From the NCBI GenBank assembly GCA_030429345.1, contig JAUIFJ010000025.1, positions 1 through 48,269 of the forward strand: a stretch of DNA of 48,269 nt, written 5' to 3'. A program made the translations under genes and the position numbers. The notes under the pieces were generated by a model. It saw nothing but the letters and a program-made list of their open reading frames with translations, was not told the DNA's origin and searched no databases. The stretch comes from a bacterium. GTDB taxonomy: Bacteria > CAIWAD01. Positions 20,266 to 48,003 of this stretch are shown here, piece after piece. Each line of letters opens with the position of its first letter. Position 1 is the stretch's first letter.

Positions 20266-20304
20266 AAAAGAAAACCCGCCCGATTCCAATGGAAAAGGGC
20301 GGGA
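20266..20304 (-). terminator. Terminator of ssrA
   Basis: Arms cccgccc (20275-20281) and gggcggg (20297-20303) with a 15-base AT-containing loop; the minus strand then reads TTTTCTTTT. It begins one base after the mature tmRNA 3' end. Confidence 0.88.
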
Positions 20305-20657
20305 TGGAGACGGAGGGAGTCGAACCCTCGTCCGGAAAGGCGCTCCAGCGCAGTTCTACACGCTTAGTCCATCCTTTGATCTCGAGCCACGAACGCCGGT
20401 GGACAGGCTGCCGCGACTCCAGGCTGAAGAATCTCGCCCCTTCACCTCAGCCGGAATGAAGGAGCCAGCCCGCGGGGGTGATGTTCGATCCGGCGGCGGC
20501 GGGCGCGCCAGCCGGGGAACAGCTACCTAAGACTAGGCAGCGAGAGCGTAATCGTTGCCGATTAAGAGTTTGCCGAAACTTTTAACGTGGTGCTCCGGCG
20601 CGTCCACGACGTGCTGTACACTGTCACTGCGATCCCGTCGAATCCACGAACGTCCCC
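20305..20657 (-). ncRNA. ssrA: Transfer-messenger RNA (tmRNA)
   Basis: The minus strand carries a standard one-piece tmRNA of about 353 bases. The 5' acceptor GGGGACG (20657-20651) pairs with CGTCTCC near the 3' end, allowing one G-U, followed by discriminator A at 20305. CCA is not encoded. The 5' part has TGGATTCGACGGGA, and the T arm has GGGTTCGACTCCC. The tag frame (20574-20533) most probably reads GKLLIGNDYALAA followed by TAG, ending in the universal YALAA degradation signal; the resume codon GGC is inferred from position. It rescues stalled ribosomes with SmpB. A promoter (20677-20705) and terminator (20266-20304) frame it. Confidence 0.96.
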
Positions 20658-24107: not shown

Positions 24108-25988
24108 CTATTTGTCCACGAAGATTCTCTCATCCCCCTGGCGGGCCGTAAGTCCACGGGAGTCGGTGTACTCCAGCAGGGGAACCGTGAAGCGGCGCGG
24201 GGAATCCAGGCGCTGGCCGGCCTGGCTCACGGTGAAGGCACCCCCCGGCAAACCCTCTGCCAAGGCGCGCAGGGAGGAGATCAGCTCTTCCAGGTGCGAG
24301 GGGAGAACGGAAACCTCGGGGCTCAGGCAAACCAGCAGCCCTTCCCGTTCGCACAGCTTGAACAGGCGCCTCAGCTCGGTGGCGGACACCTCCAGCTCCC
24401 GCGCCAGGTCGGGCGGGCGCGGCGGCGGCAGCGCGCGCTTCTCCAGGACTCCCAGCAGCCGGTCCATGCGGGATCTCAGGGCCGGGGAAATGCGCGCTTC
24501 ATGGCCCTTGCGTATCACCTCGCCCTGCCGCAGTGTGATCTCTTCAGCAAGGTCCTCCAGCAGAAGATCGAAGAGGCGCCCTTCCTCGCCGAGTCGGCTG
24601 CGGCTGCGCAGTTCCGCAAGGGGCATGGCTTCCTGCTCCGGAAAATCCCGGTGATAGTCTTCCAGGCAGCCCAGCAGCGAGTCACGCAGCTGTTTCCAGC
24701 GGCCCGCCTCGATCCAGCAGTCCTCTCCGGGAGCGACAAGCTCCTCTCGTGTTACAAACTCCGCCAGCAGCGCCTGCAGGTCTTCCAGCGGCAGTCCCGT
24801 GCGGGCCTGGAAATCCTTTCGCTTCCAGAGTGCCTGGCGGGCGGTTCGCATCAGCCCCGGCAGGGCCTGCAGGTCGGCGGCCGGCCCCAGCAGCTCGTGG
24901 GCCTTCGAGGCGTGCGGCCTGTGACGGGGCGGCGAGGGATCGACAACCTCACCTCCGCCGATGGTCCGGGCAGGAGAATAGCGGCGGATCACGAAGCGGT
25001 CGCCGCGCAGGGCGCAGACCTCTTCCTCCAGGCGCAGCTGCACCAGGCCCGAAGTCCCCGGATCCAGGTTCTCCCGGCCCAGCAGGACCACGCGGGCCAT
25101 CACCTCGGAGGTGCCGATATGCAGCCGAACACGGTCGCGCATCTCCAGACGCGGACTGTCCGCCAGCAGGCTCAGATCGACATCCAGCAGGCGCGAGGAA
25201 CGCAGGATGCCGGGAGCGGCAAGGCAGTCTCCGCGTGCGACATCCTCCCGGTGCACGCCCTGCAGGTTCAGGGCGGCGCGATCGCCGCTGGTCACTGTCT
25301 CACAGGCCTCTCCGTGGACCTGCAGGCCGCGCGCGCGTGCGCGCAGCCCGGCGGGCAGCACCTCGACCTCGTCGCCCAGCGCGAGCTGTCCTGAAAGGAC
25401 CGTGCCGGTGCAGACGGTCCCGTGTCCGCGCACGCTGAAACTGCGGTCGACGAAGAGCCGGAAAATGCCCTTTCGACGACGGTCGGGAAGGGCGGCGATC
25501 GTCCCTTCCAGGTCCTGCTTCAGTTCGGGAATGCCGAGACCGCTCAGACTGTCCACACGGTGCAGGGGAGCGTTCTCGAGGAAGGTGCCGGCGGTGAACT
25601 CGCGCAATTCCTCGCAGACCAGTTCGATCCAGTCCTCTTCGGCCAGCGCGGTCTTGGTGAGGACGATCATGCCTTGCTCGACCCCGAGCAGGCGCAGAAT
25701 GTCCAGGTGCTCCCGGGTCTGCGGCATGATGCCGTCGTCCGCCGCCACCACCAGCAGGATGAAATCCACCGTGGCCACTCCGGTGACCATGTTCTTGATG
25801 AAGCGTTCGTGTCCCGGCACGTCGATGATCGTCGCCAAGTCGCCCAGGTGGGCAAAGCCCAGATCGATGGTGATCTTGCGTTCCTGCTCCTCTCGGAGAG
25901 TATCCGTATCACGCCCCGTCAGCGCGCGGACCAGGGAGGTCTTGCCGTGATCAATGTGGCCGGCTGTACCAAGAACAATGTGCGACAT
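24108..25988 (-). CDS. selB: Selenocysteine-specific elongation factor SelB
   Basis: A 626-residue translational GTPase that delivers Sec-tRNA to UGA codons next to a SECIS hairpin. G1 is 'GTAGHIDHGKTSL', the switch region 'ITIDLGFAHL', and G3 'DVPGHERF'. Domains II-III follow (about 170-340), and the C-terminal third consists of winged helices for SECIS binding (for example 'RDSLLGCLEDYHRDFPEQEA'). G4 reads TKTA (111-114) instead of NKxD/TKxD, which removes the guanine-specific Asp. I use the ATG at 25988 (AGCAGG upstream); 26003 is an alternative. It is the last gene of a run that includes selA. Confidence 0.95.
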   Translation of the reverse strand: MSHIVLGTAGHIDHGKTSLVRALTGRDTDTLREEQERKITIDLGFAHLGDLATIIDVPGHERFIKNMVTGVATVDFILLVVAADDGIMPQTREHLDILRLLGVEQGMIVLTKTALAEEDWIELVCEELREFTAGTFLENAPLHRVDSLSGLGIPELKQDLEGTIAALPDRRRKGIFRLFVDRSFSVRGHGTVCTGTVLSGQLALGDEVEVLPAGLRARARGLQVHGEACETVTSGDRAALNLQGVHREDVARGDCLAAPGILRSSRLLDVDLSLLADSPRLEMRDRVRLHIGTSEVMARVVLLGRENLDPGTSGLVQLRLEEEVCALRGDRFVIRRYSPARTIGGGEVVDPSPPRHRPHASKAHELLGPAADLQALPGLMRTARQALWKRKDFQARTGLPLEDLQALLAEFVTREELVAPGEDCWIEAGRWKQLRDSLLGCLEDYHRDFPEQEAMPLAELRSRSRLGEEGRLFDLLLEDLAEEITLRQGEVIRKGHEARISPALRSRMDRLLGVLEKRALPPPRPPDLARELEVSATELRRLFKLCEREGLLVCLSPEVSVLPSHLEELISSLRALAEGLPGGAFTVSQAGQRLDSPRRFTVPLLEYTDSRGLTARQGDERIFVDK

Positions 25989-26033
25989 GCTACCTGCTGG
26001 CATTGGTATTCTGTACTACAAGAGTTGGCGAGA

Positions 26034-26828
26034 CTAGATTCCCCGCACCTTGCGGATCTGCTCCCAGGCGGCCTGGAGCTTCTTGAACTTCTCCTCGGCG
26101 AACTCGCGGTATTCCTCGCCCAGTGTCTGGACGCGATCGGGATGGAATTTCTTCGCCAGATCGCGGTAGGCCTTCTTCAGCTCCTCGTTGCTGGCGCTGG
26201 AGCTCATGCCGAGGACCTCGTAGGGGTCGATCATGCCGCCGGAGCCGCTGCTGCCGGGGCGACTGCTGCCGAAGACGGCGCGCAGATCCGGCTCGCTGAT
26301 GCCGAGCTGGGCGCCGATGCTGAGGATCGTCCGCGTTTCCGCCTGGCTGACCGTTCCGTCGGCCATGGCCAGGGCGAAGAGGAAGTGACACATCTCGAGC
26401 CGTTCGTGGTAGCCCATGTGCGCCACGATCTGCGCCGTGATCTCCTGCAGGTCGTACTGCTTCTGCAGGATCTCCTTGAACATCTGCATCATCGAGGCGG
26501 CCTCGTCGCTGCCGAACTGGCGCACCAGGAACTCGCGCACATGGCGCACTTCCGATCCGCTGACCGTCCCGTCGGCGCGTATCACGGTGGCGAAGAGCGC
26601 CAGCATGGCCACGGCGAAGCTGCCGCCGTAGTTCGATTCGAAGGTCTCCCGGTGGCGGTGCAGGTACTCGTCGTCGCGGTAGTAGTCGTAGGGGATCTCG
26701 TCCAGCTCATCGCGTTCCGACTTCTGGTCGAAGCGGTTGCCGACCGCGGCGCCGACCAGGGCTCCCAGGGGACCGAGCAGCGCCCAGCCCACTCCGCCGC
26801 CGATGATCTTGCCGGTCCACTTGCTCAT
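26034..26828 (-). CDS. DjlA-like co-chaperone: TerB domain plus C-terminal J domain
   Basis: A 264-residue protein. A glycine-rich N-terminal hydrophobic segment ('[20 protein letters not shown]') probably anchors it to the membrane. A TerB-type helical domain lies at about 65-185 ('[20 protein letters not shown]' and '[20 protein letters not shown]', two acidic metal-like loops). A J domain covers about 198-264 and includes 'FHPDR' (HPD 229-231), so it should stimulate DnaK. The domain order equals E. coli DjlA. It stands between selA and selB. ATG at 26828 has AAAGGAAG upstream. Confidence 0.92.
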
Positions 26829-26927
26829 GCTCGCTTCCTTTCGGGTTCAGGTTCCATGCGACCGCGGTTTCGCGGCCCGCCGAAGGGAATTGGATCCCAT
26901 TCGTGGCCGGGAGGTTTCCCTTCCGGG

Positions 26928-28373
26928 TCAAGCCGTCCCGCTTCCGTCCTTTCGGCCGCCGACGCGCTGCAGGCACTCCGCCAGCAGGCGCTCTTCCCCG
27001 GGCAGCAGCACCTTGCCATCCAGCCAGAGCGCTTCTTCGCGCACGGCGCCTACGACGGCCGGGCGTCCCTGGCGCAACTGCCGGTGCAGTCTTTCCGCCG
27101 ACTGGCTTTCGTGTTCCACGCGCAGCGCCGCGCTGGGAAGATCCTGCTCCGGAAGGGCGCCGCTGCCGGTGCGGGCGGCCGTATCACACAGCCGGAGGCG
27201 CAAGTCGCCCAGTGTCCAGCCGCTCTCCGCCTGCTGCGCGCCGGCGTGCTGCAGCACCGCCAGGCAGCGCTCGCGGGCAGGCGCGGCGTCCTCGGAGAGC
27301 ATGCGGTATACGGGAAGGGCCTGCAGGGCCTCGCCGCCCTCCAGGTAGATCTGCAGAACGGCTTCCAGCACGGCCAGGGTCAGCTTGTCCAGGCGCAGGG
27401 CGCGCATCAGAGGATTTTTCGCCAGACGGCGGATCAGCTCCGAGCGGCCGGCAAGGATTCCGGCCTGCGAAGCGCCGAGCAGCTTGTCCCCGCTGAAGGA
27501 GACCATGTCCGCGCCGTCGCGCAGGTGCTGTGCGACAACCGGTTCCGGTTCCCGCAGGAAGTCCATCGGCACCAACGCGCCGCTGCCCAGGTCATCCAGG
27601 AGCAGCAGTCCCTTCTCGCGCGCCAGGCTCGCCATCTCGCCCAGCGGGACCTCGCTGTGGAAACCGATCACGCGGTAGTTCGAGGTGTGCACGCGCAGCA
27701 GGGCCGCCGTCCCGGGTCCGACCGCCTGCTCGTAGTCGTAGAGGTGCACGCGATTCGTCGAGCCGACCTCCGTCATGCGCGCGCCGCTGCGGCGGATCAC
27801 ATCCGGAATCCGGAACCCGCCACCGATCTCCACCTGCTGGCCCCGCGCGACGATCACTTCCCGGCGATTGCATAGGCTGTTCAGCATCAGCATCACCGCC
27901 GCCGCATTGTTGTTGCAGACAAGGGCATCTTCGGCGCCGCAGAGGTGGCGCAGCATCTCGGCCACGCGCTCGTGACGCACGCCGCGCTTGCCGTCGGAAA
28001 GGCGGAACTCCAGGTCGGTGAATCCGCGGGTCGCCCGCAGCAGGGCTTCGCGAGCGGCCTCCGGCAGGGGGGCGCGGCCAAGGCCCGTGTGCAGGATCAC
28101 GCCGCTGGCGTTGATCACGTGATCCATGCCGCCCTCCTGCATGCGCAGGGCATTTTCGCTCACGGCCCGGGCGATCTCGGAGGCGCCAGGCAGTTTCCTG
28201 CGTCGCCCCTTCAGGATGCCCTGGCGAAGCTCCTCGAGATGCTCCCGGCAGAGCCGAGCAAGGACCGCTCTCGCCGGCCGCTGAAGGCCTGCGATGCTTT
28301 CGTCGGCCAGCAGGGAATCCACGGAAGGCAGGTGCTTCAGCAGGGCGCGGTCTGGGGCCTTGGACTGGGGCAT
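26928..28373 (-). CDS. selA: L-seryl-tRNA(Sec) selenium transferase SelA
   Basis: A 481-residue PLP enzyme that converts Ser-tRNA(Sec) to Sec-tRNA(Sec) with selenophosphate. The N-terminal tRNA-binding part opens 'LLKHLPSVDSLLAD'. The core has 'VINASGVILHTGLGRAPL', 'NNNAAAVMLMLNSLC', 'LLLLDDLGSGALV' and the PLP-lysine motif 'VSFSGDKLLGASQAGIL' (K297). Length is normal. It follows the beta-barrel gene by 16 bases. With selB this establishes bacterial selenocysteine insertion; selC and selD are not in the window. Confidence 0.95.
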   Translation of the reverse strand: MPQSKAPDRALLKHLPSVDSLLADESIAGLQRPARAVLARLCREHLEELRQGILKGRRRKLPGASEIARAVSENALRMQEGGMDHVINASGVILHTGLGRAPLPEAAREALLRATRGFTDLEFRLSDGKRGVRHERVAEMLRHLCGAEDALVCNNNAAAVMLMLNSLCNRREVIVARGQQVEIGGGFRIPDVIRRSGARMTEVGSTNRVHLYDYEQAVGPGTAALLRVHTSNYRVIGFHSEVPLGEMASLAREKGLLLLDDLGSGALVPMDFLREPEPVVAQHLRDGADMVSFSGDKLLGASQAGILAGRSELIRRLAKNPLMRALRLDKLTLAVLEAVLQIYLEGGEALQALPVYRMLSEDAAPARERCLAVLQHAGAQQAESGWTLGDLRLRLCDTAARTGSGALPEQDLPSAALRVEHESQSAERLHRQLRQGRPAVVGAVREEALWLDGKVLLPGEERLLAECLQRVGGRKDGSGTA

Positions 28374-33256: not shown

Positions 33257-33360
33257 GGGGTTTCCCGGATTGGTTCAGGTTGAAGCCAAGGTATATATCC
33301 TTATACGGCAAAGCCAAGGTGAAGAAATCACGGAAGAATGACCTTTGCCGCATGGACGGT

Positions 33361-33648
33361 GCCAGGCACGGTGCCAGGCACGGTGCCACGCACGGTGCCA
33401 GGGACGGTGCCAGGCACGGTGCCAAGGACGGTGCCAAGGACGGTGCCAAGGACGGTGCCAAGGACGGTGCCAGGCACGGTGCCAGGCACGGTGCCAGGCA
33501 CGGTGCCACGCACGGTACCAGGCACGGTGCCAGGCACGGTGCCACGCACGGTGCCAAGGACGGTGCCAGGGACAGTGCCAGGGACAGTGCCAGGCACGGT
33601 ACCAGGGACAGTGCCAGGCACGGTGCCAAGGACAGTGCCAGGGACGAG
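33361..33648. repeat. Array of 24 twelve-base repeats (gccaggcacggt family)
   Basis: Exactly 24 contiguous units of 12 bases. The main form is gccaggcacggt; variants are gccacgcacggt, gccagggacggt, gccaaggacggt, accaggcacggt, gccagggacagt, accagggacagt and gccaaggacagt; the last unit ends gag. Unit length never changes, and changes are limited mainly to positions 1, 5-7 and 10, leaving 'cca' and 'ac.gt' intact. ggtgccaggcacc inside neighbouring units is palindromic. It is the reverse-orientation relative of the array at 1-126 and lies 12 bases past a terminator. Confidence 0.97.
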
Positions 33649-33660
33649 TAGCGGCCCAAA

Positions 33661-33692
33661 GAAAAACCGGGATCCTGAAAGGATCCCGGTTT
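33661..33692 (-). terminator. Rho-independent terminator after the lipoprotein gene
   Basis: Arms aaccgggatcc (33665-33675) and ggatcccggtt (33681-33691) pair perfectly around a 5-base loop, with a T run on the minus strand at 33666-33662. Confidence 0.92.
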
Positions 33693-33718
33693 GAGTTGCG
33701 GCTTGTTCGCGGGCTTAG

Positions 33719-34549
33719 CTACTGCCGATCCCCGCTGACCAGGTCGAAACTCACTTCCCGGTCCTGGAGGGCCAGGCGGCCGTCCCCTTCGTCCCCGAAA
33801 GTGATCGTCGCTTCGCGGTGAATCTCCTGCCCATTGCGTATTGCGTCAAAGACAATGTGGATCGTTCCTTCCACGGGAATCCGCCGTCCGCGCAAGCCGA
33901 TCACGCGCAGGTCCGTCGCGGTCATCGTCAGCGTGAATTCGTAGCTGCGCTGTTCCTCTTCGCTGACCTGGCGTGTGCCCGAGCCGCTGCGCGTGTGGCT
34001 GCCATTGACGAGCACGCCCGGCACATCATCGTGCATTTCACGCAGCTGCCAGTTGTCGGACCCGTTCTTCTCCCATTCGCCGCGTCGATTCCAGGAGTTG
34101 CCCTCGAAGTCGAAAGTCGCGTCGAGTCCTTTCACATTGCCTTCGCCATCCCTTTCGACAATGCAGCCGCCGTCCTCGTCCATCAGGTGGATCGTGCGCA
34201 CTCCATTCCACTCATGGCCCGCAAAAGGGCCTTCGACGCTGCGCGTCATGGTGAAGGTCCAGGTGCAGGTGCTGCTGTCGAAGACGGCCTCGTCGCTCAG
34301 GAAGCCCTTGCCCGATTCCATGGGGTCATAGGGTGCATCCAGGGAGCTGCTTTCTTCCACGAGAGTGTATTCGACGCTTTCCAGCACACCGCCGGTTTCC
34401 AAAGCAACGTTCTCAATGATGATTTCGACGGCATCGTCGCTTTCCGTGCTCTGGCTGCGAGTGCCCAGGCTGTTGTCGCTGTCATCACCGCAGCCTGTCC
34501 AAAGGAAGGCCATGCCGATCAGCGCGCTCAGGGCGATAGGGCGATTCAT
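33719..34549 (-). CDS. Lipoprotein of unknown function
   Basis: A 276-residue lipoprotein with signal peptide and lipobox 'MAFLWTGC' (Cys near residue 20), followed by an acidic linker. The rest is beta-rich with no motif I recognise: 'VEYTLVEESSSLDAPYDPME', 'GKGFLSDEAVFDSSTCTWTF' and 'VEGTIHIVFDAIRNGQEIHR'. Two Cys in the mature part may form a disulfide. ATG at 34549 has GGAGGAATC upstream and replaces a longer open frame that lacks a signal sequence. It is a single-gene unit with its own promoter (34647-34674) and terminator. Confidence 0.82.
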   Translation of the reverse strand: MNRPIALSALIGMAFLWTGCGDDSDNSLGTRSQSTESDDAVEIIIENVALETGGVLESVEYTLVEESSSLDAPYDPMESGKGFLSDEAVFDSSTCTWTFTMTRSVEGPFAGHEWNGVRTIHLMDEDGGCIVERDGEGNVKGLDATFDFEGNSWNRRGEWEKNGSDNWQLREMHDDVPGVLVNGSHTRSGSGTRQVSEEEQRSYEFTLTMTATDLRVIGLRGRRIPVEGTIHIVFDAIRNGQEIHREATITFGDEGDGRLALQDREVSFDLVSGDRQ

Positions 34550-38666: not shown

Positions 38667-39644
38667 CTAGGGCTGATTCATGGGATCGCTCGCATGATGG
38701 AAGACCCAGTCGCGCCCGTAGCCTTCGCTGGAGTTGGCGTGGCTGTGGCAACCGGCGCAGCTGGTCTCGCTGCCGCCCTGGGCCAGCACCGTGCCATCGC
38801 CGCTGAACATGAAATACTCCCAGCCGTCGCCTGCGGGGTCGAAGGATCCGCCGCGCTTGACCATGGCCGTGCGGGCGTCGTTCAGGACGCCGTCCTGCCA
38901 GACCTCTTTGACGAAGACCGTGCCCGTGGGCCACATGTCACCGCTGGAGCCGGCCGGGTTGGGATCGGCGTGCAGGGTGTTCTTGAAGACCTTTCGCGTC
39001 GCGTCGGCGCCTCCGTGGGCGGCGTTGAGGAAGTCATGGTCGCCCGTCACCTCGTCGACCACGGCCCAGCTGCTGTAGTCGGCGAGGATGCCGCTCAGCT
39101 CGACCACCGATTCACTGGGATGCTTGAAGACATGGTCCAGGCCGTCGTAGGTCGTCGCCGCGGAATGGCAGCTGTTGCAGGCTCCGTCCATGACCTCCGC
39201 GCCGCCGCGGACCATGATTTCGCTGGCATCGTTGGACAGCATGAACCATTCCCAGTCGCCGGCACCCGGATTGAAGCCGGCGCCGCGCTTGACCATGGCC
39301 AGCAGGCCGCCCTGGTCGGCATACTGCATGCTGCCCGAAGCGTCGTGGTTGAAAGTCTCCTTGACCAGGATTGTCCCTTCCGGGTATTCCCCGTTCTGCG
39401 CGCTCGGATTGCCGTAGGCGAAAATCCGCCGGTGGAAATCCGCCTGGTTGCCCATGTGCGCGCCGCCGAGGCCGTTGCTGGCATCAATGGTGTAGTCGAC
39501 CTGCGTCCAGGAACGGTAGCCGTCGAAGGAACTAGCGTCGGCTATGAAGCCGGCCGGATCGTCGTCGCCGTCATCCTCGCAGCCGACGAAGACCAGGCTG
39601 CCGAGGGCCAGCCAGAGGCTGCCCTTGATCAGTGAGTGTCTCAT
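38667..39644 (-). CDS. Lipoprotein with two tandem cytochrome P460-like domains
   Basis: A 325-residue lipoprotein (lipobox 'SLVFVGC', Cys22). Two similar domains, about 36-175 and 186-320, each have the P460 layout: a 'SW..VD' start, 'GTILVKETF' (K95) or 'GTVFVKEVW' (K246), 'MVKRG', 'GDWEWFM' or 'DGWEYFM', and one c-type haem motif, CNSCH (156-160) and CAGCH (296-300). In cytochrome P460 a Lys can cross-link to haem; the conserved K95/K246 are candidates. Such proteins oxidise hydroxylamine or bind NO in known cases; here the substrate is unknown. GGGAGG precedes the ATG at 39644. Confidence 0.88.
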   Translation of the reverse strand: MRHSLIKGSLWLALGSLVFVGCEDDGDDDPAGFIADASSFDGYRSWTQVDYTIDASNGLGGAHMGNQADFHRRIFAYGNPSAQNGEYPEGTILVKETFNHDASGSMQYADQGGLLAMVKRGAGFNPGAGDWEWFMLSNDASEIMVRGGAEVMDGACNSCHSAATTYDGLDHVFKHPSESVVELSGILADYSSWAVVDEVTGDHDFLNAAHGGADATRKVFKNTLHADPNPAGSSGDMWPTGTVFVKEVWQDGVLNDARTAMVKRGGSFDPAGDGWEYFMFSGDGTVLAQGGSETSCAGCHSHANSSEGYGRDWVFHHASDPMNQP

Positions 39645-39806
39645 GGAATCCTCCCTAAAGATTGTGTGTGAGTACATGTTCGCATGGCCTTCCCCAGGGG
39701 AGGGAAGAGCGAAGGCGCGCCGGGAGGAGACGGCCTTTGTGGTACAAGGTCCGGATGCGCGATCCGGAAGCCTGGAAATGTCACACGGGGCTTGCCCCGT
39801 CGGAAT

Positions 39807-40613
39807 CTAGTTGTCCTGCGCGCCCTGCTCGATCCAGTCGCGCACGGCCTGGATGCTCGCGGCCGGCAGGGGGCCGGATGGCGGCATGACGCCGCCCGCT
39901 CCCTCGAGCCGCTGTACCAGCCAGCTGCCGTCGGCGTTCCCGGCGACCACCACGGGTCCCGAGGAGCCGCCGTCGAGCACACCGGTCCAGCTGCCCAGGT
40001 CCAGGCCGCCGTTGCCGGGATGGCAGGAAACGCAGTGGGCGTTGAAGATCGGCTGGATCTCGGCGGAGTAGCTGAGCAGCGGCTCGTCCTCCGGCGGCAG
40101 GGAGAAGGTGAAGCCCACGCCGCCTGCATCCTCTGCGCCGCTGTGACACGACACGCATGCCCCTCCAGCGAGGTTCGCCCCGAAGGCCCGCACGGCAGTC
40201 CCCGTCGTGTCCAGTTCGACCCACTCCCAGTCTCCGCCGGAAGGAGCGAACCCGCCGGATCGCTTGATCATTCCCAATAGGCCCAGCTCGGGAGCCCACT
40301 GGCGCTCGCCGTCCACCAGGCGGAAAGTCTCGCAGACCAGGGCCGCGCCTTCGGCGGCACCCGTGCCGTCAGCCAGGCCGTTGCTGTAGATGGCGCGCGT
40401 GTAGGTGCTGTCGCCGCCCTGGTGGGCTCCGTCCAGCGCGCCGGCCGCCACGTGATCCGTGGGGAGCCGCGTCCAGCCGTCGTAGCCGGAAAAGGCCTCG
40501 AGCAGCTCCGCTTCGGGATCCACTTCCAGCTCATCGCCCAGGTCGCTGCAGGAAAGCGCCAGCAGCAGGATCGGCAGCAGCCGGAAGGCTTCGCGTCGTT
40601 TCATCGTGGTCAT
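39807..40613 (-). CDS. Lipoprotein with one P460-like domain and a C-terminal planctomycete-type cytochrome c domain
   Basis: A 268-residue lipoprotein ('LPILLLALSC', Cys22). Residues about 40-165 are a P460-like domain with haem motif CVSCH (153-157). A C-terminal mono-haem domain (about 182-268) has 'IQPIFNAHCVSCHPGNGGLD' (194-198) and ends 'PLPAASIQAVRDWIEQGA', as in PSCyt1/c-type domains. The Lys seen in the tandem protein ('LVKETF') is here Cys94 ('LVCETF'). It is 24 bases after the barrel gene and 162 before the tandem P460 gene. A second ATG at 40604 is possible. Confidence 0.86.
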   Translation of the reverse strand: MTTMKRREAFRLLPILLLALSCSDLGDELEVDPEAELLEAFSGYDGWTRLPTDHVAAGALDGAHQGGDSTYTRAIYSNGLADGTGAAEGAALVCETFRLVDGERQWAPELGLLGMIKRSGGFAPSGGDWEWVELDTTGTAVRAFGANLAGGACVSCHSGAEDAGGVGFTFSLPPEDEPLLSYSAEIQPIFNAHCVSCHPGNGGLDLGSWTGVLDGGSSGPVVVAGNADGSWLVQRLEGAGGVMPPSGPLPAASIQAVRDWIEQGAQDN

Positions 40614-40637
40614 CCGGATCCGGTCTCCCGATTCGTG

Positions 40638-41798
40638 TTACAGGAAAAAGTGCAGCTGCACGCCTGCCTGCAGCCAGGTCTCGCTTTGGCTGCCATTGTC
40701 GTGCCGGTAGGTGTCGACCCCCGGCGTCAGCGCCATCCAGGGCAGGGGAATCCAGTCCAGGGCCAGGCGCAGCCGCTCCTCGCTGCCGCTCTTCAGCTCC
40801 AGGTCGGCATCGTGGAAGTCGTAGGCGAGCTGGGCCGTGTATCCCTGCCGGAAGGTCCAGCTGAACTGCTGTGATACAACCAGCGCATCGGTCGAGCTGG
40901 GACCGTTGACCGGATCCAGGGTCGACAGGTAGGCTTCGCCGACCAGGTCGAATCGGCCCAGGTTCAGCGCGTAGAAGGGACCGATGATCGTGTGATCCAT
41001 TTCCGTTCCCGGTCCGAGCGTGATGCGGTTGGCCCGCGCGCTGAGCCCCAGGAAGACTCCGGCATTTCCGATGAAGCGGTTGTGCGACAGCCGCAGGGTC
41101 AGGGCCTTCTGCCGGTTGGTGTCGAAGATGCCGCTGCTGCCGTTGCTCAGGGCCAGGCTGGCGCTATAGCCGTCGGGGTGGAACTCGAACTCCACGCCCG
41201 TGTCCTGTTCGCGGTTGCGGGCGCTGAAGCCCAGCTTGCTGCGGCTGAAGGCGTTGTGATCCACGAACTTCCAGCCGAAGCTCGGCAGGAAGCGCCCGAC
41301 GCGAAAGGAACCGTCGAGCGGCAGCACGCTGGCCAGGGCCCAGGCTTCCCAGGCGCCGTTCAGGTTCTGCTCGTAGACCATGTCGAAGCCTTCGGCAAGC
41401 TTGAACTGCAGGTAGAACTCCCCCTGCATCTGCACGAAGCTGCTCGTCTCGAGCCAGCTGTCGAAGAGGCCGTCCGTCGAATCGGCGCCGGAGGCCGCTT
41501 TCGGCAGATCCGGAGCCGCATCGTGCACCAGCAGGGTGCGGAAATCCGCGCCGACGGCCAGGCGTTCGGAGATCTTCGTTTCCAGCTGCCCCAGCTCTTC
41601 GAAATCGAAGGCCCGGTCGGCGAGTTCCGTTCCGGCGAAGAACTGGCTGCCGTAGCTGGTGCGCATGCCGCCGCCGCCGGGGCTGACATGGCAGAGGTGG
41701 CAGTTCTGCGTGTACTGCGAGCTGAATCGGGGCAAGGCCTGGGACAGGCCCGGCAAGAGCAGGCACACCAGGAGTAGAAGGACGAGATTCCGGTTCAT
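40638..41798 (-). CDS. Outer-membrane beta-barrel with N-terminal c-type haem motif
   Basis: A 386-residue exported protein (signal peptide 'LVLLLLVCLLLPGLSQA'). Directly after the signal comes 'QNCHLCHVSPGGGGMRTSYG', one CxxCH haem site (33-37). The remainder is a barrel of amphipathic strands ('FRVGRFLPSFGWKFVDH', 'GYTAQLAYDFHDADLELKSG'), ending 'QAGVQLHFFL'. The haem would sit at the periplasmic mouth of the barrel and could feed the two haem lipoproteins encoded next. The ATG at 41798 has only a weak ribosome site; the longer open frame upstream has no signal peptide. Confidence 0.85.
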   Translation of the reverse strand: MNRNLVLLLLVCLLLPGLSQALPRFSSQYTQNCHLCHVSPGGGGMRTSYGSQFFAGTELADRAFDFEELGQLETKISERLAVGADFRTLLVHDAAPDLPKAASGADSTDGLFDSWLETSSFVQMQGEFYLQFKLAEGFDMVYEQNLNGAWEAWALASVLPLDGSFRVGRFLPSFGWKFVDHNAFSRSKLGFSARNREQDTGVEFEFHPDGYSASLALSNGSSGIFDTNRQKALTLRLSHNRFIGNAGVFLGLSARANRITLGPGTEMDHTIIGPFYALNLGRFDLVGEAYLSTLDPVNGPSSTDALVVSQQFSWTFRQGYTAQLAYDFHDADLELKSGSEERLRLALDWIPLPWMALTPGVDTYRHDNGSQSETWLQAGVQLHFFL

Positions 41799-41904: not shown

Positions 41905-43419
41905 TCAGGAAAAGGGCGCGCCGGCTTCCTGCCACTGGGCTTTCTCCTCCTGGCTGAGCAGGTAGCGCTCCTGGAATCGTTCCGGGCTGACACGCTGGAT
42001 GGCGGCGGCCAGGCGCTGGCGACGATCCGGCTCCATGGGCAGCAGCAGAAGACGCTGGACCAGGGATTTCTCAAAGGATGTCCGCTGGCAGAGGCATTCC
42101 AGCGCCAGCTCGCGGCGGGCATCCTCCAGGGAAAGCCAGGCCTCGGCGCGTTCCTGCAGGCCGGGACGTTCGGACAGCCAGCCGAGGGCCGGAGAATCGA
42201 GCACCAGGCCCTGCTCCAGATCCGCCAGCAGGCGCTGCTCCAGCTCCGTCTCGTCCAGGCCGGCCTTGAGCAGACAAGCGATGCCCCCCGGGCGCCGATG
42301 CATGTCGGCCGGCAAGACCTCCGCTTTCAGCCCTTCCAGCCAGGCCGGATCCTTCTGCTCCTCGTACAGGCGCAGGCGCAGCTCTTCCGGCAGGTCCGCC
42401 GGGGCTTCCGCCGGACCCACTCCGGCCAGCGCCCAGTCGCGCTCGCTTTCCGGCAGGGCGGGCAGCAGGCGCAGGCGTGTGGCGCGATCCGGCTGCAACT
42501 CCTTCAAAAGGGGCATCGCGTCCCCGCGGCCGGCCAGCACCTCCTCCACCAGCAGCTCCTGCCAGGCCGGATCCTGCGCCAGGAAGGCCGGACGATCCTC
42601 CGGGCTCCCCTTGCGCCAGGCCGTGCCCAGCAACCTGCGCCAGCTGCGGCCCTTGGAATGTTCACGCAGCGCCTTGTGCAGCGGGGAGTTTTCCTCCAGC
42701 TCCCTCAACAAGGCCAGGCTTTCGCCCAGGGGCAGGCGCAGTTCGGGCAGCAGCAGTAGCAGGGAAGACTGCCCGCTCTTGCGCTGCCAGCCGAGAACGA
42801 CGCGGGGCGGAAGGTCTTTCGGCGCCTCGACGGAAAAGGGCAGCGCCGGATCGGCCTGCAGGGCCGCCAGCACCAGCTCTTCCTTGCGCCGGGGAGGAAG
42901 ATCCGCTTCCAGAAGATGAGTGAAGGTTTCGGGCGTCCAGGGCCCTTCGGGGCGCAGGCGGCCGGCCAGGTGCCTGCGCCAGCGGGGGCTGGCCATGGCC
43001 TTGGCGAGGGTCGTCGCGGGCAGCGGAAAGTCCGGGTCCGCGAGCAGGGCCTGGATCACACGGGGGTGGGTAGGCGGCGAGAGGGCGCGGGACAAGAGCT
43101 CCGGCTGGCGCAGGATCTGCAGCTTGAGCCACTCCAATCCGGCAGGCCCCAGGCCTTCCTGCGCCCAGGCGAAAACCTGCTCCAGCTCCGGCTGCGTGCC
43201 GAAACGGATGTCCTCCGCCCGCAGTTTGCGCCGTCCCTTCTCGCGCTGCTCGATGACCTCGTAGGCGATCCACTCGCCCGGATTGGCCTGCAGCTCGAAC
43301 TCGAAGAGGGCGAAGAGCTCCTCCTTCAGGCGCATGTCTCGCACGAAGCCGTAGTTGCTGCCCTTGACAATGGTCTTCACCCGCCCGAGGCTCTGCCCCA
43401 GGCTTTTTCGCTCGCTCAT
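41905..43419 (-). CDS. Unfamiliar protein: cold-shock-like OB N-terminus plus long helical repeat region
   Basis: A 504-residue cytoplasmic protein. The first 70 residues ('GRVKTIVKGSNYGFVRDMRL', 'ELFALFEFELQANPGEWIAY', 'GRRKLRAEDIRF') follow the cold-shock/S1-like pattern, with the RNA-binding aromatics of RNP1 reduced to 'NYGFV'. The other 430 residues are Leu-rich helices with no clear family, possibly HEAT-like ('RLPLGESLALLRELEENSPL'). I do not know its function; RNA binding is plausible for the N-terminus. It follows the propeller gene by 57 bases and precedes the haem cluster by 106. AGGGGA precedes the ATG. Confidence 0.8.
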   Translation of the reverse strand: MSERKSLGQSLGRVKTIVKGSNYGFVRDMRLKEELFALFEFELQANPGEWIAYEVIEQREKGRRKLRAEDIRFGTQPELEQVFAWAQEGLGPAGLEWLKLQILRQPELLSRALSPPTHPRVIQALLADPDFPLPATTLAKAMASPRWRRHLAGRLRPEGPWTPETFTHLLEADLPPRRKEELVLAALQADPALPFSVEAPKDLPPRVVLGWQRKSGQSSLLLLLPELRLPLGESLALLRELEENSPLHKALREHSKGRSWRRLLGTAWRKGSPEDRPAFLAQDPAWQELLVEEVLAGRGDAMPLLKELQPDRATRLRLLPALPESERDWALAGVGPAEAPADLPEELRLRLYEEQKDPAWLEGLKAEVLPADMHRRPGGIACLLKAGLDETELEQRLLADLEQGLVLDSPALGWLSERPGLQERAEAWLSLEDARRELALECLCQRTSFEKSLVQRLLLLPMEPDRRQRLAAAIQRVSPERFQERYLLSQEEKAQWQEAGAPFS

Positions 43420-43476: not shown

Positions 43477-45987
43477 TTACGGAAGCAGCGGATCGACCCG
43501 GTAGAAGCGCGGATCGACACCGAAGACCTCGCTGAAGGTGGTATCGCTCACCGTGGCCAGCAGCTCGCTCTCGCCGGGCACGAACCAGGGCGTCGGCGAG
43601 GCGTATACACGGTAGGCCCCGGCCCCGGAGACCACTGTCCAGGACAGCCGCAGCAGGGGTCCCTCCAGGGAGGCCTGCAGCTGCGGAACCTGCTCCGGAT
43701 GCTCGTCGACGAAGAGGCGCCAGGCGCTGCGGCCGTGCGTGCCCGCCAGCAGCTGGCGGCTCGGGGCGTGGAAGGCCAGGTCGAGCACGGGCCCCAGGGG
43801 CAGCCCGCCGGCGGCGAGGGTCCATTCCATGCCGCCGTCGCGTGTGACATAGCAGCCGGTCTCGGTGGCGGCCCAGATGCGCTGGCCGTCCTGGGGATCG
43901 ATGACAATGTCGTACACCGGCGCGTCCGGCAGGTTGCCGTGGATCGGCGCCCAGCTGGCACCGTAGTCCCAGGTGCGGTAGACATGAGGCTCGGGATCCT
44001 CCCAGCGCAGGCCGCCCAGGCTGACCACGGCGCCGCCGGCAAGCGCGGGGTCCGGCGCGATGCCCGTGATCCAGCGCTGCGGCAGGCTGCCGCCCACCTG
44101 CTGCCAGAAAGCGCCGCCGCTGGTCGTGCGCGCCAGGTTGCCGTCGTCGCAGCCGGCCCAGAGCACCAGTGAATCCACGGGCGAGGGCGCAAGGCAGGTC
44201 AGGGTGTTGAAGCCCGCGTCTCCGCTGAACCCCTGGCTCAGGTCGCCGCTGATCGCGCTCCAGCTGGCGCCGCGGTTGTCGCTGCGCCAGACCCGCTGCG
44301 TTCCCGTATACAGGACTTCCGGATCCAGCGGCGAAAGCGCCAGCGGCGTGTTCCAGTTCCTGCGGTCCCCGCCGGAAATGCCGTTCGTGATCTGGAACCA
44401 GCTCTGGCCGCCGTCGTCGCTGCGGCGCAGGTTGCCCCACTGGTACTCGGCGTAGAGCACCTGCGGCTCCTCCGGATGGACGATCACATGGAAGCCGTCC
44501 CCGCCGAGCAGGTTCTCCCAGTCGGCCAGTCCCCCGGTCTGTGTGCCAATGGTGCCGTTGTCCTGCGTGCCGCCGAAGATCCGCTGCGGATCGGAAGGGT
44601 CGAAGGCCACATTGTAGAACTGGGTCAGGGGAATGTTCTGGAAGTGCGTATACGAGACCAGGTCGTGGCTGGCGTAGAGGCCGCCGTCGTTGCCGATCCA
44701 CCAGCGCCCGCTCTGCGGATGCCGCTCCAGGGCATGGTAGTCCACGTGGACGGCATGGGCCAGGCGGTTCCAGTTGTCCCCGGCATCCAGGCTGCGCCAC
44801 CAGGTGACACCCAATGCGTGGACGTGGTCGTCATCCTGCGGGTCGACGCGCAGGTTGCCGAAGTACCAGCCGAAGCTGCTGTAGAGATTGGCCAGAATGC
44901 CGTCATTGACCCGCACAAAGGATTCCCCGCCATTGTCGCTGCGGTAGAGCCCCAGGAAGTAGCCGGGATGGTCGGCGTAGCTCAGGTAGACACGCTGGGG
45001 ATCCCCGGCGGCAAGGGCCACGGCCGGACGGCCGACCAGGGCGCCCTGAGGCAGAATGCCCGTCAACTCGCTCCAGCTCTGGCCTCCGTCGAGGCTGCGC
45101 CAGACTCCGCTGCCCTCGCCGCCGCTGACCCGGCTGGTCAGCGTGCGCAGGCGCTGCCAGGAGCAGGCGAAGAGCCGGTCGGGATTGCCGGGATCAATGG
45201 CCAGGTCGACAACAGAGGTCGTGTCATTGATGAAGAGCTGCTGTTCCCAGGTCTGCCCGCCGTCGGGGCTGTAATACACGCCGCGCTGGCCGCCCGTCGA
45301 GTAGAGCCGGCCGAGAGCCGCGACCCACAGGCGCTGGCTGTCCGTCGGATCGATCACGATGCGGCCGATGTAGCCGCTGGAATCCAGCCCCATGGCCTGC
45401 CAGCTGTCTCCCCCGTCGTCGCTCTTCCAGACGCCGTTTCCGGGAAAGCCGTAGCTCGAGCTGTTGCTCTCGCCCGTGCCGACCCAAAGCACCTGCGGGT
45501 CCAGCGGGTCCAGGGCAATGTCGCCGATGGCCAGCGCGCCGGCGTTCTGGAAGATCTCCTGCCAGCTCGCTCCGCCATCCGTCGTGCGGAAGACCCCGCC
45601 CGCGGCGCTGGCGACGAAGACCCGGTTGCTGTCCGCCGGGTCCAGGGCAATGTCCGTCACCCGGCCGCCGATGTTGAGCGGTCCCGCCTGTTGCCAGATC
45701 GCGCGGGAGGCGCCGTGGGCCGCCGGCATGCGTTCCGCCTGCTGCCGAGCGCGGCGAACGGCCTCCAGGGAAATTTCGCCTTCCGGCCAGGCCAGCATGC
45801 GGAACATCCACTCGTTGGGCAGGGCATTGGGGCCGGCATCCGGGCGGCGCTCCTTTTTCAGCGCCTTGGCCGCCTGGTGACTGGACACCGCGTCGATCGC
45901 AGGCGGAGACTCCGGCCAGGCCTGCCAGATCAGGATGACGGCCACCAGGGCCAGTGCCTGGAAAAAGGGTGGCAGAATGCGTCTCAT
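43477..45987 (-). CDS. Exported BNR/sortilin-like beta-propeller protein
   Basis: An 836-residue protein with signal peptide or anchor 'FFQALALVAVILIWQAW'. About ten propeller blades carry the Asp-box/BNR pattern 'S.D.G.TW': 'FRTTDGGASWQEIFQNAG', 'WKSDDGGDSWQAMGLD', 'YYSPDGGQTWEQQLF', 'WRSLDGGQSWSELTG', and 'YVTRDGGMEWTLAAGGLP'. Between blades, 'IALDPADSNRVFVAS' and 'IALDPLDPQVLWVGTG' recur. The C-terminus is a fibronectin-like stretch without the FlgD-type tail. No glycosidase motif is seen. Likely a surface recognition or scaffold protein; the VPS10/YCF48-like families are the closest I know. Confidence 0.87.
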   Translation of the reverse strand: MRRILPPFFQALALVAVILIWQAWPESPPAIDAVSSHQAAKALKKERRPDAGPNALPNEWMFRMLAWPEGEISLEAVRRARQQAERMPAAHGASRAIWQQAGPLNIGGRVTDIALDPADSNRVFVASAAGGVFRTTDGGASWQEIFQNAGALAIGDIALDPLDPQVLWVGTGESNSSSYGFPGNGVWKSDDGGDSWQAMGLDSSGYIGRIVIDPTDSQRLWVAALGRLYSTGGQRGVYYSPDGGQTWEQQLFINDTTSVVDLAIDPGNPDRLFACSWQRLRTLTSRVSGGEGSGVWRSLDGGQSWSELTGILPQGALVGRPAVALAAGDPQRVYLSYADHPGYFLGLYRSDNGGESFVRVNDGILANLYSSFGWYFGNLRVDPQDDDHVHALGVTWWRSLDAGDNWNRLAHAVHVDYHALERHPQSGRWWIGNDGGLYASHDLVSYTHFQNIPLTQFYNVAFDPSDPQRIFGGTQDNGTIGTQTGGLADWENLLGGDGFHVIVHPEEPQVLYAEYQWGNLRRSDDGGQSWFQITNGISGGDRRNWNTPLALSPLDPEVLYTGTQRVWRSDNRGASWSAISGDLSQGFSGDAGFNTLTCLAPSPVDSLVLWAGCDDGNLARTTSGGAFWQQVGGSLPQRWITGIAPDPALAGGAVVSLGGLRWEDPEPHVYRTWDYGASWAPIHGNLPDAPVYDIVIDPQDGQRIWAATETGCYVTRDGGMEWTLAAGGLPLGPVLDLAFHAPSRQLLAGTHGRSAWRLFVDEHPEQVPQLQASLEGPLLRLSWTVVSGAGAYRVYASPTPWFVPGESELLATVSDTTFSEVFGVDPRFYRVDPLLP

Positions 45988-46111
45988 GGATTCGACTCCG
46001 ATTGCGGGAATGCGACGAACCCAAGAAGGGAAGTCCGGCCGGAAGAGGGAAGGGAAAGCGTGCCTGTACGATCATCCACCACAGTCCCGGGATTCATACC
46101 TTTGCGCGATC

Positions 46112-47419
46112 ATGAAAGACCCTCGACTCGACACCCTGCGGGAACACGGCCTGGTCGGCATGGGCGGCGCGGGTTTTCCCACGCATGTCAAGCTGGACAG
46201 TTCCGTCGACACCCTGCTGATCAACGCCGCGGAGTGCGAACCCCTGCTGCGCAAGGACAATGTGGTCATGCAGACCTGTCCCGAGGAAGTGGCGGCGGGA
46301 ATCCGCGTGGCGGCGGAACTCTGCGGGGCCTCGCGGGTCGTCATCGGCATCAAGGCCAAGAACCGCGCCTCGATCGCCGCCATGGCCTCCGTGGCCGGGG
46401 ACCTCTTCGAGATCCACGAGCTGGGGGATTTCTACCCCGCCGGCGACGAGGTGACCCTGGTCTACGAGCTGACGGGCCGCATCGTGCCGCCCTCCGGGAT
46501 TCCGCTGCAGGTGGGCTGCGTGGTGATCAACAACGAGACCGCGCTCAACATCCACGAGGCCCTGGCCGGCCAACCTGTCACACATACCTTCCTGACGGTC
46601 AGCGGGGAGGTCCGCAAGCCCCAGACCGTGCGCGCCCCCATCGGCGTCAGCTTCCGCGAGCTGGTGCAACACGCGGGCGGCACACGGCTCAAGGACTGGG
46701 TGATCCTCGACGGAGGGCCGATGATGGGCCGCATCGTCACGGATCCCGACACGCCGGTGGTCAAGACCAGTTCCGGCGTGATCGTCCTGCCGACGGACCA
46801 TCCTTATGTGGAACGGGAACTGCGCCCCCGCGAGGCCAAGTTCCGCATCGGCAAGAGCGTCTGCGACCAGTGTTCGCTGTGCACGCAGTTCTGCCCGCGC
46901 TACCTGCTGGGGCATCCGCTGGAACCGCACCAGGCCATGCGGCAGCAGTTCATCATTGACTTTCCGGCGCACAGCCGCTGGGGCCAGGTCTGCTGCGAAT
47001 GCGGCCTGTGCACGCTTTTCGCCTGCCCCGAAGGGCTCTACCCCCGCGAGGCCTGCCAGGACAGCAAGCGCAGCCTGGCGGCGCTCGGCGAGGCCTATAA
47101 CGGTCCGAGCGAGGTCACCGTCCATCCCATGTACGACCACCGCAAGGTGCCGACGAAGAAGCTGCTGATGCGCATCGGCCTTTCGCGCTTCGAGCACGAT
47201 GCGCCGTATACGGACTACGAGGGCGGGCGCGGTCCGCTCCGCATCCGCCTGGACCAGCACATCGGGGCGCCCGCGCGGCCCGTGGTATCCGAGGGCGAGC
47301 AGGTGCGGCGCGGACAGCTACTGGCCCGTCCGCCCGAAGGCGCGCTGGGCGTGCCGGTGCACAGCCCGAGGGAAGCCCGCGTGGAAGCGCTCGAAGACCT
47401 GGAGATCCGCCTCTCGTGA
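46112..47419 (+). CDS. PduS-like RnfC-family flavin/iron-sulfur protein (microcompartment electron transfer)
   Basis: A 435-residue soluble protein. The N-terminal flavin/NADH-type domain has 'GLVGMGGAGFPTHVKL' and 'LLINAAECEPLLRKDN'. An SLBB-like unit follows ('GVSFRELVQHAGG'), then two 4Fe-4S motifs: C251/C254/C257/C261 in 'CDQCSLCTQFCPR' and C294/C297/C300/C305 in 'CCECGLCTLFACPEG'. Order and length equal PduS, which reduces cobalamin or moves electrons across the shell. The ATG at 46112 has no strong ribosome site, and TACCTTTG lies at 46097-46104, so the mRNA might be nearly leaderless (inference). Its stop overlaps the shell-protein start. Confidence 0.9.
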   Translation: MKDPRLDTLREHGLVGMGGAGFPTHVKLDSSVDTLLINAAECEPLLRKDNVVMQTCPEEVAAGIRVAAELCGASRVVIGIKAKNRASIAAMASVAGDLFEIHELGDFYPAGDEVTLVYELTGRIVPPSGIPLQVGCVVINNETALNIHEALAGQPVTHTFLTVSGEVRKPQTVRAPIGVSFRELVQHAGGTRLKDWVILDGGPMMGRIVTDPDTPVVKTSSGVIVLPTDHPYVERELRPREAKFRIGKSVCDQCSLCTQFCPRYLLGHPLEPHQAMRQQFIIDFPAHSRWGQVCCECGLCTLFACPEGLYPREACQDSKRSLAALGEAYNGPSEVTVHPMYDHRKVPTKKLLMRIGLSRFEHDAPYTDYEGGRGPLRIRLDQHIGAPARPVVSEGEQVRRGQLLARPPEGALGVPVHSPREARVEALEDLEIRLS

Positions 47420-48003
47420 TACGCAACCAGAATGCCCAGTTCACGCCGGACCGGCCGCGCGACGCGGTCGGCATCATCGAATTCAGCTCGATCGCCAAGG
47501 GCATCGAGGCCGCCGACCAGATGCTGAAGACCTCCGAGATCCAGCTTCTTGTCTCACGGACGATCTGTCCCGGAAAGCACATGAGCGTGATCTCCGGCGA
47601 TACGGCGGCCGTGCAAAGCGCCCTCCAGGCGGCCCAGGTGCTGGGCGAGCGCGAGGTGGTCGACGATTTCATGATCCCCAACCTGCATCCCCAGGTGGTT
47701 CCCGCCATGGAGGGCACTCAGGAAATGGGCGAGGTGCAGGCCCTGGGCATCATCGAGGCCTTCGCCGTCGCCACGCTGATCGAGGGAGCCGACATGGCCG
47801 CCAAGACGGCGGAGGTGCGGCTGCTGGAGATCCGCCTGGCCATGGCCATCGGGGGGAAGGGCTTTGTCACACTGACCGGCGAGGTCGCCGCCGTCCGCAG
47901 CGCCGTGGAGGCCGGCGCGGCCCGTGTAGGACAAAAGGGCATGCTGGTCAACAAGGTCGTCATTCCCAACCCGCGACCGGAGATCATCCGCGACCTCATA
48001 TAA
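47416..48003 (+). CDS. PduT-like tandem-BMC shell protein
   Basis: A 195-residue shell protein with two BMC domains, about 15-95 ('AVGIIEFSSIAKGIEAADQM') and 108-190 ('ALGIIEAFAVATLIEGADMA'), which makes a trimeric pseudohexamer. Cys51 in 'SRTICPGKHM' lies where PduT binds a 4Fe-4S cluster at the three-fold pore, so this tile probably carries electrons through the shell. Start is GTG at 47416, overlapping the PduS stop codon (GTGA). No BMC-H, pentamer or encapsulated enzyme gene lies within the window. Confidence 0.93.
   Translation: MIRNQNAQFTPDRPRDAVGIIEFSSIAKGIEAADQMLKTSEIQLLVSRTICPGKHMSVISGDTAAVQSALQAAQVLGEREVVDDFMIPNLHPQVVPAMEGTQEMGEVQALGIIEAFAVATLIEGADMAAKTAEVRLLEIRLAMAIGGKGFVTLTGEVAAVRSAVEAGAARVGQKGMLVNKVVIPNPRPEIIRDLI

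Follow-up and report, generated by a model that had tools for sequence, protein, structure and literature searches.

A run of three haem-protein genes

We analysed a 48,269-nucleotide (nt) stretch of bacterial DNA (contig JAUIFJ010000025.1 of assembly GCA_030429345.1, here called the window), in which three consecutive minus-strand genes at positions 38667-41798 encode a predicted barrel protein, homologous by profile comparison to the cytochrome-porin Cyc2, and two putative lipoproteins with P460-type domains. A preliminary description of this DNA had pointed to three consecutive genes with CxxCH haem-binding motifs at this place, and the open reading frames (ORFs), the Pfam matches and the lipobox signals bear it out. 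In order of transcription, the genes are those for the barrel, for a lipoprotein of 268 amino acids (aa) and for a lipoprotein of 325 aa:

40638-41798, minus strand: Cyc2-like fused monohaem cytochrome-porin (the barrel), a 386-aa ORF assigned by homology
39807-40613, minus strand: lipoprotein with a P460/c'-beta-like domain (residues 46-162) and a PSCyt1/cbb3-type cytochrome c domain (residues 185-261), assigned by Pfam and lipobox
38667-39644, minus strand: lipoprotein of 325 aa with two P460 domains and 2 CxxCH, assigned by PF16694 and PDB profile matches

The barrel protein carries one CxxCH (CHLCH, residues 33-37) directly behind the signal peptide, the second protein CVSCH at 153 and at 194, and the third CNSCH at 156 and CAGCH at 296. 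No other gene of the 38 called in the window encodes a CxxCH, and the three are adjacent; by simple counting, three random genes of 38 would be adjacent in 36/8436, or 0.4%, of cases. The gaps between them measure 24 nt (barrel to second gene) and 162 nt (second to third). Both lipoproteins fit the PROSITE lipobox pattern and have acidic residues after the lipobox Cys. Such an acidic start marks surface lipoproteins in Bacteroidota, and the two proteins of the window might be exposed in the same way. Genes for c-type cytochrome assembly were found in the genome to which the window belongs, and models of defence systems gave no match.

The first gene encodes a relative of Cyc2

Searched by sequence, the barrel protein had no match in Pfam, NCBIfam or PDB. 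In order to define the family, we aligned it with 22 complete homologues from other genomes, leaving aside the barrel of genome G002, which is split over two frames. Absence of CxxCH from close homologues had been named in the preliminary description as a finding that would speak against a haem-tagged barrel; the motif is present in all 22. It lies within a longer conserved segment:

41661-41738, minus strand: haem signature ALPRFSSQYTQNCHLCHVSPGGGGMR, with CHLCH at 41688-41702; 8 positions identical in 23/23 homologues

Counted from the first Cys of the motif, the identical positions are P-10, C0, C3, H4, P7, G9, G11 and R13, the 23 sequences being the 22 complete homologues and the window protein. 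The haem segment of the family can be written approximately as A-x-P-x-[YF]-[SA]-x-x-x-G-Q-x-C-x-L-C-H-x-[ND]-P-x-G-G-G-x-R.

Cyc2 is a porin of at least 365 aa and 16 strands, with the signature AXPXFAR[Q/K][T/Y] ahead of its haem site and PXL four residues behind it (PMC8406198). The preliminary description, in setting the locus against conduits that use large multihaem proteins, had overlooked this fused monohaem cytochrome-porin, to which the barrel is homologous. The window protein shares its size and architecture, with 386 aa and a single CxxCH that follows the signal peptide and is fused to the barrel. For comparison, we collected Cyc2-type proteins with the strict pattern PxFAR[QK][TY]...CxxCH from 386 genomes, which gave five proteins, four of them complete. 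Aligned over its full length to these four with hhalign, the barrel family scored a probability of 97.8% (E 1e-12, 350 columns); for the haem segment by itself the values were 97.0% (E 1.2e-10), and for the barrel part by itself 86.5% (E 4.6e-6). Controls, column-shuffled or reversed, stayed at or below 0.4%, and an unrelated outer-membrane-type protein of the window reached 0.3%. The last residue is aromatic (F/Y/W) in 20 of the 23 homologues, as is typical of outer-membrane barrels, and Leu in the window protein. The assignment of the first protein as a barrel rests on its homology to Cyc2-type cytochrome-porins and on this C-terminal pattern.

Further, the family resembles Cyc2 of Acidithiobacillus and of Mariprofundus PV-1 in its signal peptide, its single N-terminal CxxCH, its small fused barrel and the full-length profile homology, and also in AxPx[F/Y] and a Q/K-T/Y-like pair that stand before the haem site at equal spacing. 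It differs from Cyc2 in that the 'AR' of AXPXFAR[Q/K][T/Y] and the PXL are replaced, with an invariant PxGxGxR after the haem instead, and in its partners, which are P460, c-type and YceI proteins and not Cyc1 and rusticyanin. When a tree was built, a 100/100 branch separated the 23 barrels from the four Cyc2-type proteins; as the branches are long, only this separation was used. Because homology to Cyc2 is present and the strict motif tests failed, the family is, on sequence grounds, best called a sister family of Cyc2, and it probably works like Cyc2.

The homology raises the question of whether the locus serves the oxidation of extracellular Fe(II) or another dissolved metal, with the P460 and c-type lipoproteins as first electron acceptors, since iron oxidation has been demonstrated for Cyc2 (PMC8406198). 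We consider this quite improbable. The strict motif and PXL are lacking, and the barrels form a separate group in the tree; one genome (G240) holds a strict-motif Cyc2-type protein and a barrel of our family on the same contig, suggesting different tasks for the two; and the near-universal presence of the barrel in a phylum of 85 genomes, described below, is unlike that of a specialised iron oxidase.

The lipoproteins carry P460-type domains with a haem pocket predicted to be altered

The third protein matched PF16694 in two stretches with 79.4 bits against a cut-off of 27, the CxxCH lying C-terminal in the domain. In the second protein the C-terminal half matched PSCyt1 and cbb3-type cytochrome c above the Pfam cut-off (43 and 33 bits); its N-terminal P460 domain, with 19 bits, fell under the cut-off, yet it is 39% identical to the domain of the third protein. 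Weak phmmer matches of the second protein to GAPDH and encapsulin were judged to be chance and dropped. A profile of 13 P460 domains matched the cytochromes c'-beta 7ead (E 6.6e-15) and 6hih (E 1.5e-12) and the cytochromes P460 6hiu, 2je2 and 6amg (E 1e-11 to 4e-11). The structures matched by P460 profile comprise McCP-beta, TtCP-beta, McP460, NeP460 and NsP460, with E values of 2e-9 to 7e-15.

In order to map the haem pocket, we aligned 68 sequences of the family with the two c'-beta sequences in the form given in the PDB search output. According to Table 2 of PMC11928373, the cross-linking Lys of cytochromes P460 (Lys70 in NeP460) corresponds to Phe61 in McCP-beta, the catalytic carboxylate (Glu96 in NeP460, Asp102 in McP460) to Gly82, and the distal cap, a Phe or Arg, to Phe32. 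In the window this places the following residues:

39360-39362, minus strand: Lys95, cross-link position of P460 domain 1 of the third protein, aligned to Phe61 of McCP-beta and of TtCP-beta
38907-38909, minus strand: Lys246, cross-link position of P460 domain 2 of the third protein, by alignment
40332-40334, minus strand: Cys94, cross-link position of the P460-like domain of the second protein, the sole non-Lys of 68
39456-39458, minus strand: His63, proposed distal-cap position of P460 domain 1 of the third protein, Phe in McCP-beta and TtCP-beta

The cross-link position is Lys in 67 of the 68 sequences, as in cytochromes P460, and in the third protein a lysine cross-link to each P460 haem is predicted. 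The exception is the second protein, which, because Cys94 replaces the Lys, does not strictly count as a cytochrome P460; Cys94 could give a thioether to the haem edge, or the pocket could just be c'-beta-like. The distal cap is His in 67 of the 68 family sequences, where all structurally characterised members of the P460/c'-beta superfamily have Phe or Arg. In the P460 proteins of the 85-genome phylum the spacing from this His to a VY pair equals that from Phe to VY in McCP-beta, free of gaps; in the window domains the loop is longer, so that the assignment rests there on a conserved AHxG motif.

At the carboxylate position Ala was found in 64 of the 68 sequences; the window has Ala116 and Ala260 in the third protein and Gly114 in the second. 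This bears on the suggestion, made in the preliminary description, that the system oxidises a small nitrogen compound: the P460 lipoproteins would oxidise hydroxylamine or a similar molecule and the electrons would leave via the barrel. The cross-linking lysine is in keeping with it, and the conserved distal His could in principle stand in for the carboxylate. However, all three domains of the window lack the proton-accepting residue, and so does NsP460, which has Ala at this position, forms the Lys cross-link and is inactive on NH2OH, activity being regained only with Glu (PMC11928373). Oxidation of hydroxylamine by the known mechanism is unlikely on this account, and nitrogen-compound oxidation as an explanation of the whole locus appears to us very improbable. 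Judged by their pocket residues, the third protein's P460 haems more likely bind a ligand or transfer electrons; the distal His could be an axial ligand, as in an electron-transfer haem, or a proton relay.

Barrel and P460 genes are paired in other lineages

A single-sequence query with the barrel gave no match in the genome contigs, and a scan for relatives with a three-row alignment found only two family-mates, both uncultured metagenome-assembled genomes. With a three-row profile, the barrel was detected in 39 of 386 genomes across the domain Bacteria, and it is present in 4/5 genomes of the window's own phylum. It is most frequent in the phylum of genome G043, with 79 of 85 genomes and 55 of the 56 of good quality. 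Of 70 barrel loci read there, 56 have a P460 gene on the same strand and upstream of the barrel, within about 0.5 kilobases in all of these but one. In G258 and G043, from phyla other than that of the window, a P460 gene stands directly upstream of the barrel. PF16694 was matched in 9 of the 28 barrel genomes searched.

The exact trio of barrel, P460+c fusion and tandem P460 was found only in the window's genome, and this might be taken to mean that unrelated haem proteins have come together by chance. Against it stand the 56 loci of another phylum, out of 70, whose P460 gene precedes the barrel on its strand, and the arrangement in G258; of the explanations considered, chance is the least probable. 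The haem-tagged barrel with P460-type partners proposed in the preliminary description is real and conserved, given the barrel homologues and the pairing in other lineages. The second finding that it had named as refuting, absence of the three genes together from other genomes, likewise failed to appear in that barrel and P460 recur side by side in other lineages; the trio itself was not found there, the family-mates pairing the barrel with other genes.

In these family-mates of the window's genome (G002 and G003), the barrel gene is followed by YceI and then by a monohaem lipoprotein. The monohaem lipoprotein matches the C-terminal half of the second protein of the window, as does that of G004, where it stands beside YceI at the start of a separate contig. 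In G003, another contig carries YceI followed by a tandem-P460 lipoprotein that is 47% identical to the third protein. The cassette of G002 and G003 lies downstream, on the same strand, of a run of formate dehydrogenase, NrfD, dihaem cytochrome and molybdate transport genes; judged by the NrfD protein, this link is absent in the window's genome and in G004. In G004 the barrel is at a contig end, with an RnfC/BMC pair as in the window and with a homologue of the window gene that precedes the barrel:

41905-43419, minus strand: gene upstream of the barrel gene, without Pfam match; a homologue adjoins the G004 barrel (BLASTP E 3e-17)

In all, nine genomes have YceI next to the barrel, and seven of these lie outside the window's phylum (six of the nine neighbours were confirmed by PF04264 and three were read by eye). 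In five loci of the G043 phylum, all of one genus (g341), P460 and barrel are joined by a further c-type cytochrome downstream, which in locus L098 has N-terminal hydrophobic segments and 2 CxxCH.

Some variants were observed. Most barrels of the G043 phylum (65/70 loci, such as L068, L096 and L098) have a second CxxCH and appear to be a two-haem version of the cytochrome-porin; in L066 and L068 this motif follows the first at a distance of 73 residues, and where read it lies just before an MQGE-like strand. In G258, a second P460 lipoprotein (locus L181, G258:C661, 3-752) adjoins genes of a cbb3-type oxidase, hinting at a link of such P460s to respiration at low oxygen or under exposure to nitric oxide (NO). 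In the window's genome, away from the barrel, a YceI gene follows another secreted protein with one CxxCH (locus L176, G000:C11, 6470-7929), so that a haem protein is the neighbour of YceI in this genome as well.

The recurrence of YceI raises the possibility of a defence against envelope stress, in which barrel, YceI-type lipocalin and P460 or c-type lipoproteins would destroy lipid peroxyl radicals, peroxide or NO at the outer membrane, the barrel serving as an inlet or outlet for electrons and not as a respiratory conduit. YceI lipocalins and cytochrome b561 protect Burkholderia from lipid peroxyl radicals (PMC9113575), and cytochromes c'-beta bind NO, one with an Arg cap having peroxidase-like activity (PMC11928373). 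YceI adjoins not only the barrel in nine diverse genomes but also the tandem-P460 gene of G003; the second P460 of G258 stands beside cbb3-type oxidase genes, and near-universal presence in one phylum suits a housekeeping role. With its link to YceI and a distribution like that of a housekeeping system, this is the strongest rival explanation, one that we nevertheless hold to be unlikely. In the window's genome the YceI genes lie on contigs other than that of the barrel, and no YceI was noticed beside the barrel in the phylum where P460 and barrel are most densely paired. The BcnA (YceI)-LcoA (cytochrome b561) system of PMC9113575 is similar in that YceI stands beside the barrel in several genomes; it differs in that the window has no YceI and no cytochrome b561 was identified.

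A candidate outer-membrane redox gate

We favour, with a probability of about 0.6, the reading of the locus as a redox gate in the outer membrane that resembles Cyc2 and has P460 and c-type haem proteins as its lipid-anchored partners; it would fit the import of electrons as well as the export proposed in the preliminary description. It is based on the Cyc2 homology, the conserved haem signature, the signals for lipid anchoring and the recurrent neighbourhood of barrel genes with those for P460, YceI or monohaem lipoproteins. In such a gate, the first protein would form a small barrel in the outer membrane, closed at its periplasmic end by the N-terminal segment with its one haem, following the model of Cyc2 in the literature. 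Within the pore, a small diffusible redox species, be it a metal ion, a radical or a gas, would give electrons to the haem of this plug or take them from it; these would pass to or from the c-type and P460 haems of the lipoproteins and then the c-type carriers of the cell. We infer a direct transfer of electrons between barrel and lipoproteins, as well as the membrane face on which the latter sit.

Several results weigh against this reading. The strict upstream motif of Cyc2 is fitted by the window sequence ALPRFSSQY in A, P, F, Q and Y, and Ser replaces both its second A and its R; in place of PXL the window protein has CHLCH-VSPGGGG and the family x[ND]PxGGGxR. Counting amphipathic strands on the barrel alignment yielded 17 peaks, no more than the mean of 17 obtained after shuffling. 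AlphaFold models reached a mean predicted local distance difference test (pLDDT) of 31.6 for the barrel, from a shallow two-row alignment, and 41.1 for the P460 domain, from a shallow three-row one. The 162-nt gap ahead of the tandem-P460 gene leaves its co-transcription with the rest of the trio unsettled, and a promoter and terminator scan of the locus gave no site above chance. Finally, gene adjacency alone is no proof of contact between proteins.

The candidate gate shares with MtrCAB, MtoAB and PioAB an outer-membrane barrel that would work with haem proteins. In those systems, however, a large barrel surrounds a separate decahaem cytochrome, whereas here one haem is fused to the barrel; the neighbours hold two CxxCH each, and no separate large multihaem cytochrome of the MtrAB/PioAB kind lies beside the barrel. 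From the known members of the P460/c'-beta superfamily (PF16694; PMC11928373), whose domain family they share and, in the third protein, the cross-linking Lys of cytochromes P460, the window proteins differ in being lipid-anchored, in being tandem or fused to a c-type domain, and in being paired with a cytochrome-porin.

The preliminary description had suggested that the combination may be new, and the conserved pairing of P460 and cytochrome-porin is apparently undescribed: a literature search, with most subscription papers outside its scope, found no paper with both Cyc2 and P460 and none joining cytochrome P460, YceI and porin. Judged by their sequences, both components would belong to known kinds, the barrel to a sister family and the P460 lipoproteins to a pocket variant, the pairing being what appears to be new. 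A more far-reaching claim, for which we put the odds somewhat below even, is that the pairing represents an undescribed and widespread outer-membrane module, made of a Cyc2-like monohaem porin and a new lipid-anchored subgroup of P460 (Lys cross-link plus distal His), in which the haem would serve electron transfer or ligand capture and not hydroxylamine oxidation.

Work on cytochromes P460 has centred on those of nitrifiers and methanotrophs. In the present case, the genes of P460 lipoproteins are linked to that of a cytochrome-porin in phyla that are not related, and in one of them in most genomes, which would extend the Cyc2 kind of outer-membrane electron gate well past the iron oxidisers. 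The pairing offers a concrete test case for the 'halfway house' P460 proteins of open function, and the signature AxPx[YF]...CxxCHx[ND]PxGGGxR can be used to search for further members.

Other features of the window

An RnfC-type protein (TIGR01945) and a tandem-BMC shell protein of the PduT kind are encoded one after the other at 45935-48003 (plus strand), suggesting a microcompartment electron shuttle; the pair of G004 lies near the barrel as well (locus L007, 3110-5004). At 24108-28373 (minus strand), selB and selA flank a DnaJ-like gene and indicate selenocysteine machinery in the genome. A low-complexity ORF with CQARC/CQGRC repeats at 33345-33821 (plus strand) is most likely a DNA repeat and not a gene. 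Finally, a transfer-messenger RNA gene at 20302-20657 (minus strand) encodes the tag peptide GNDYALAA.

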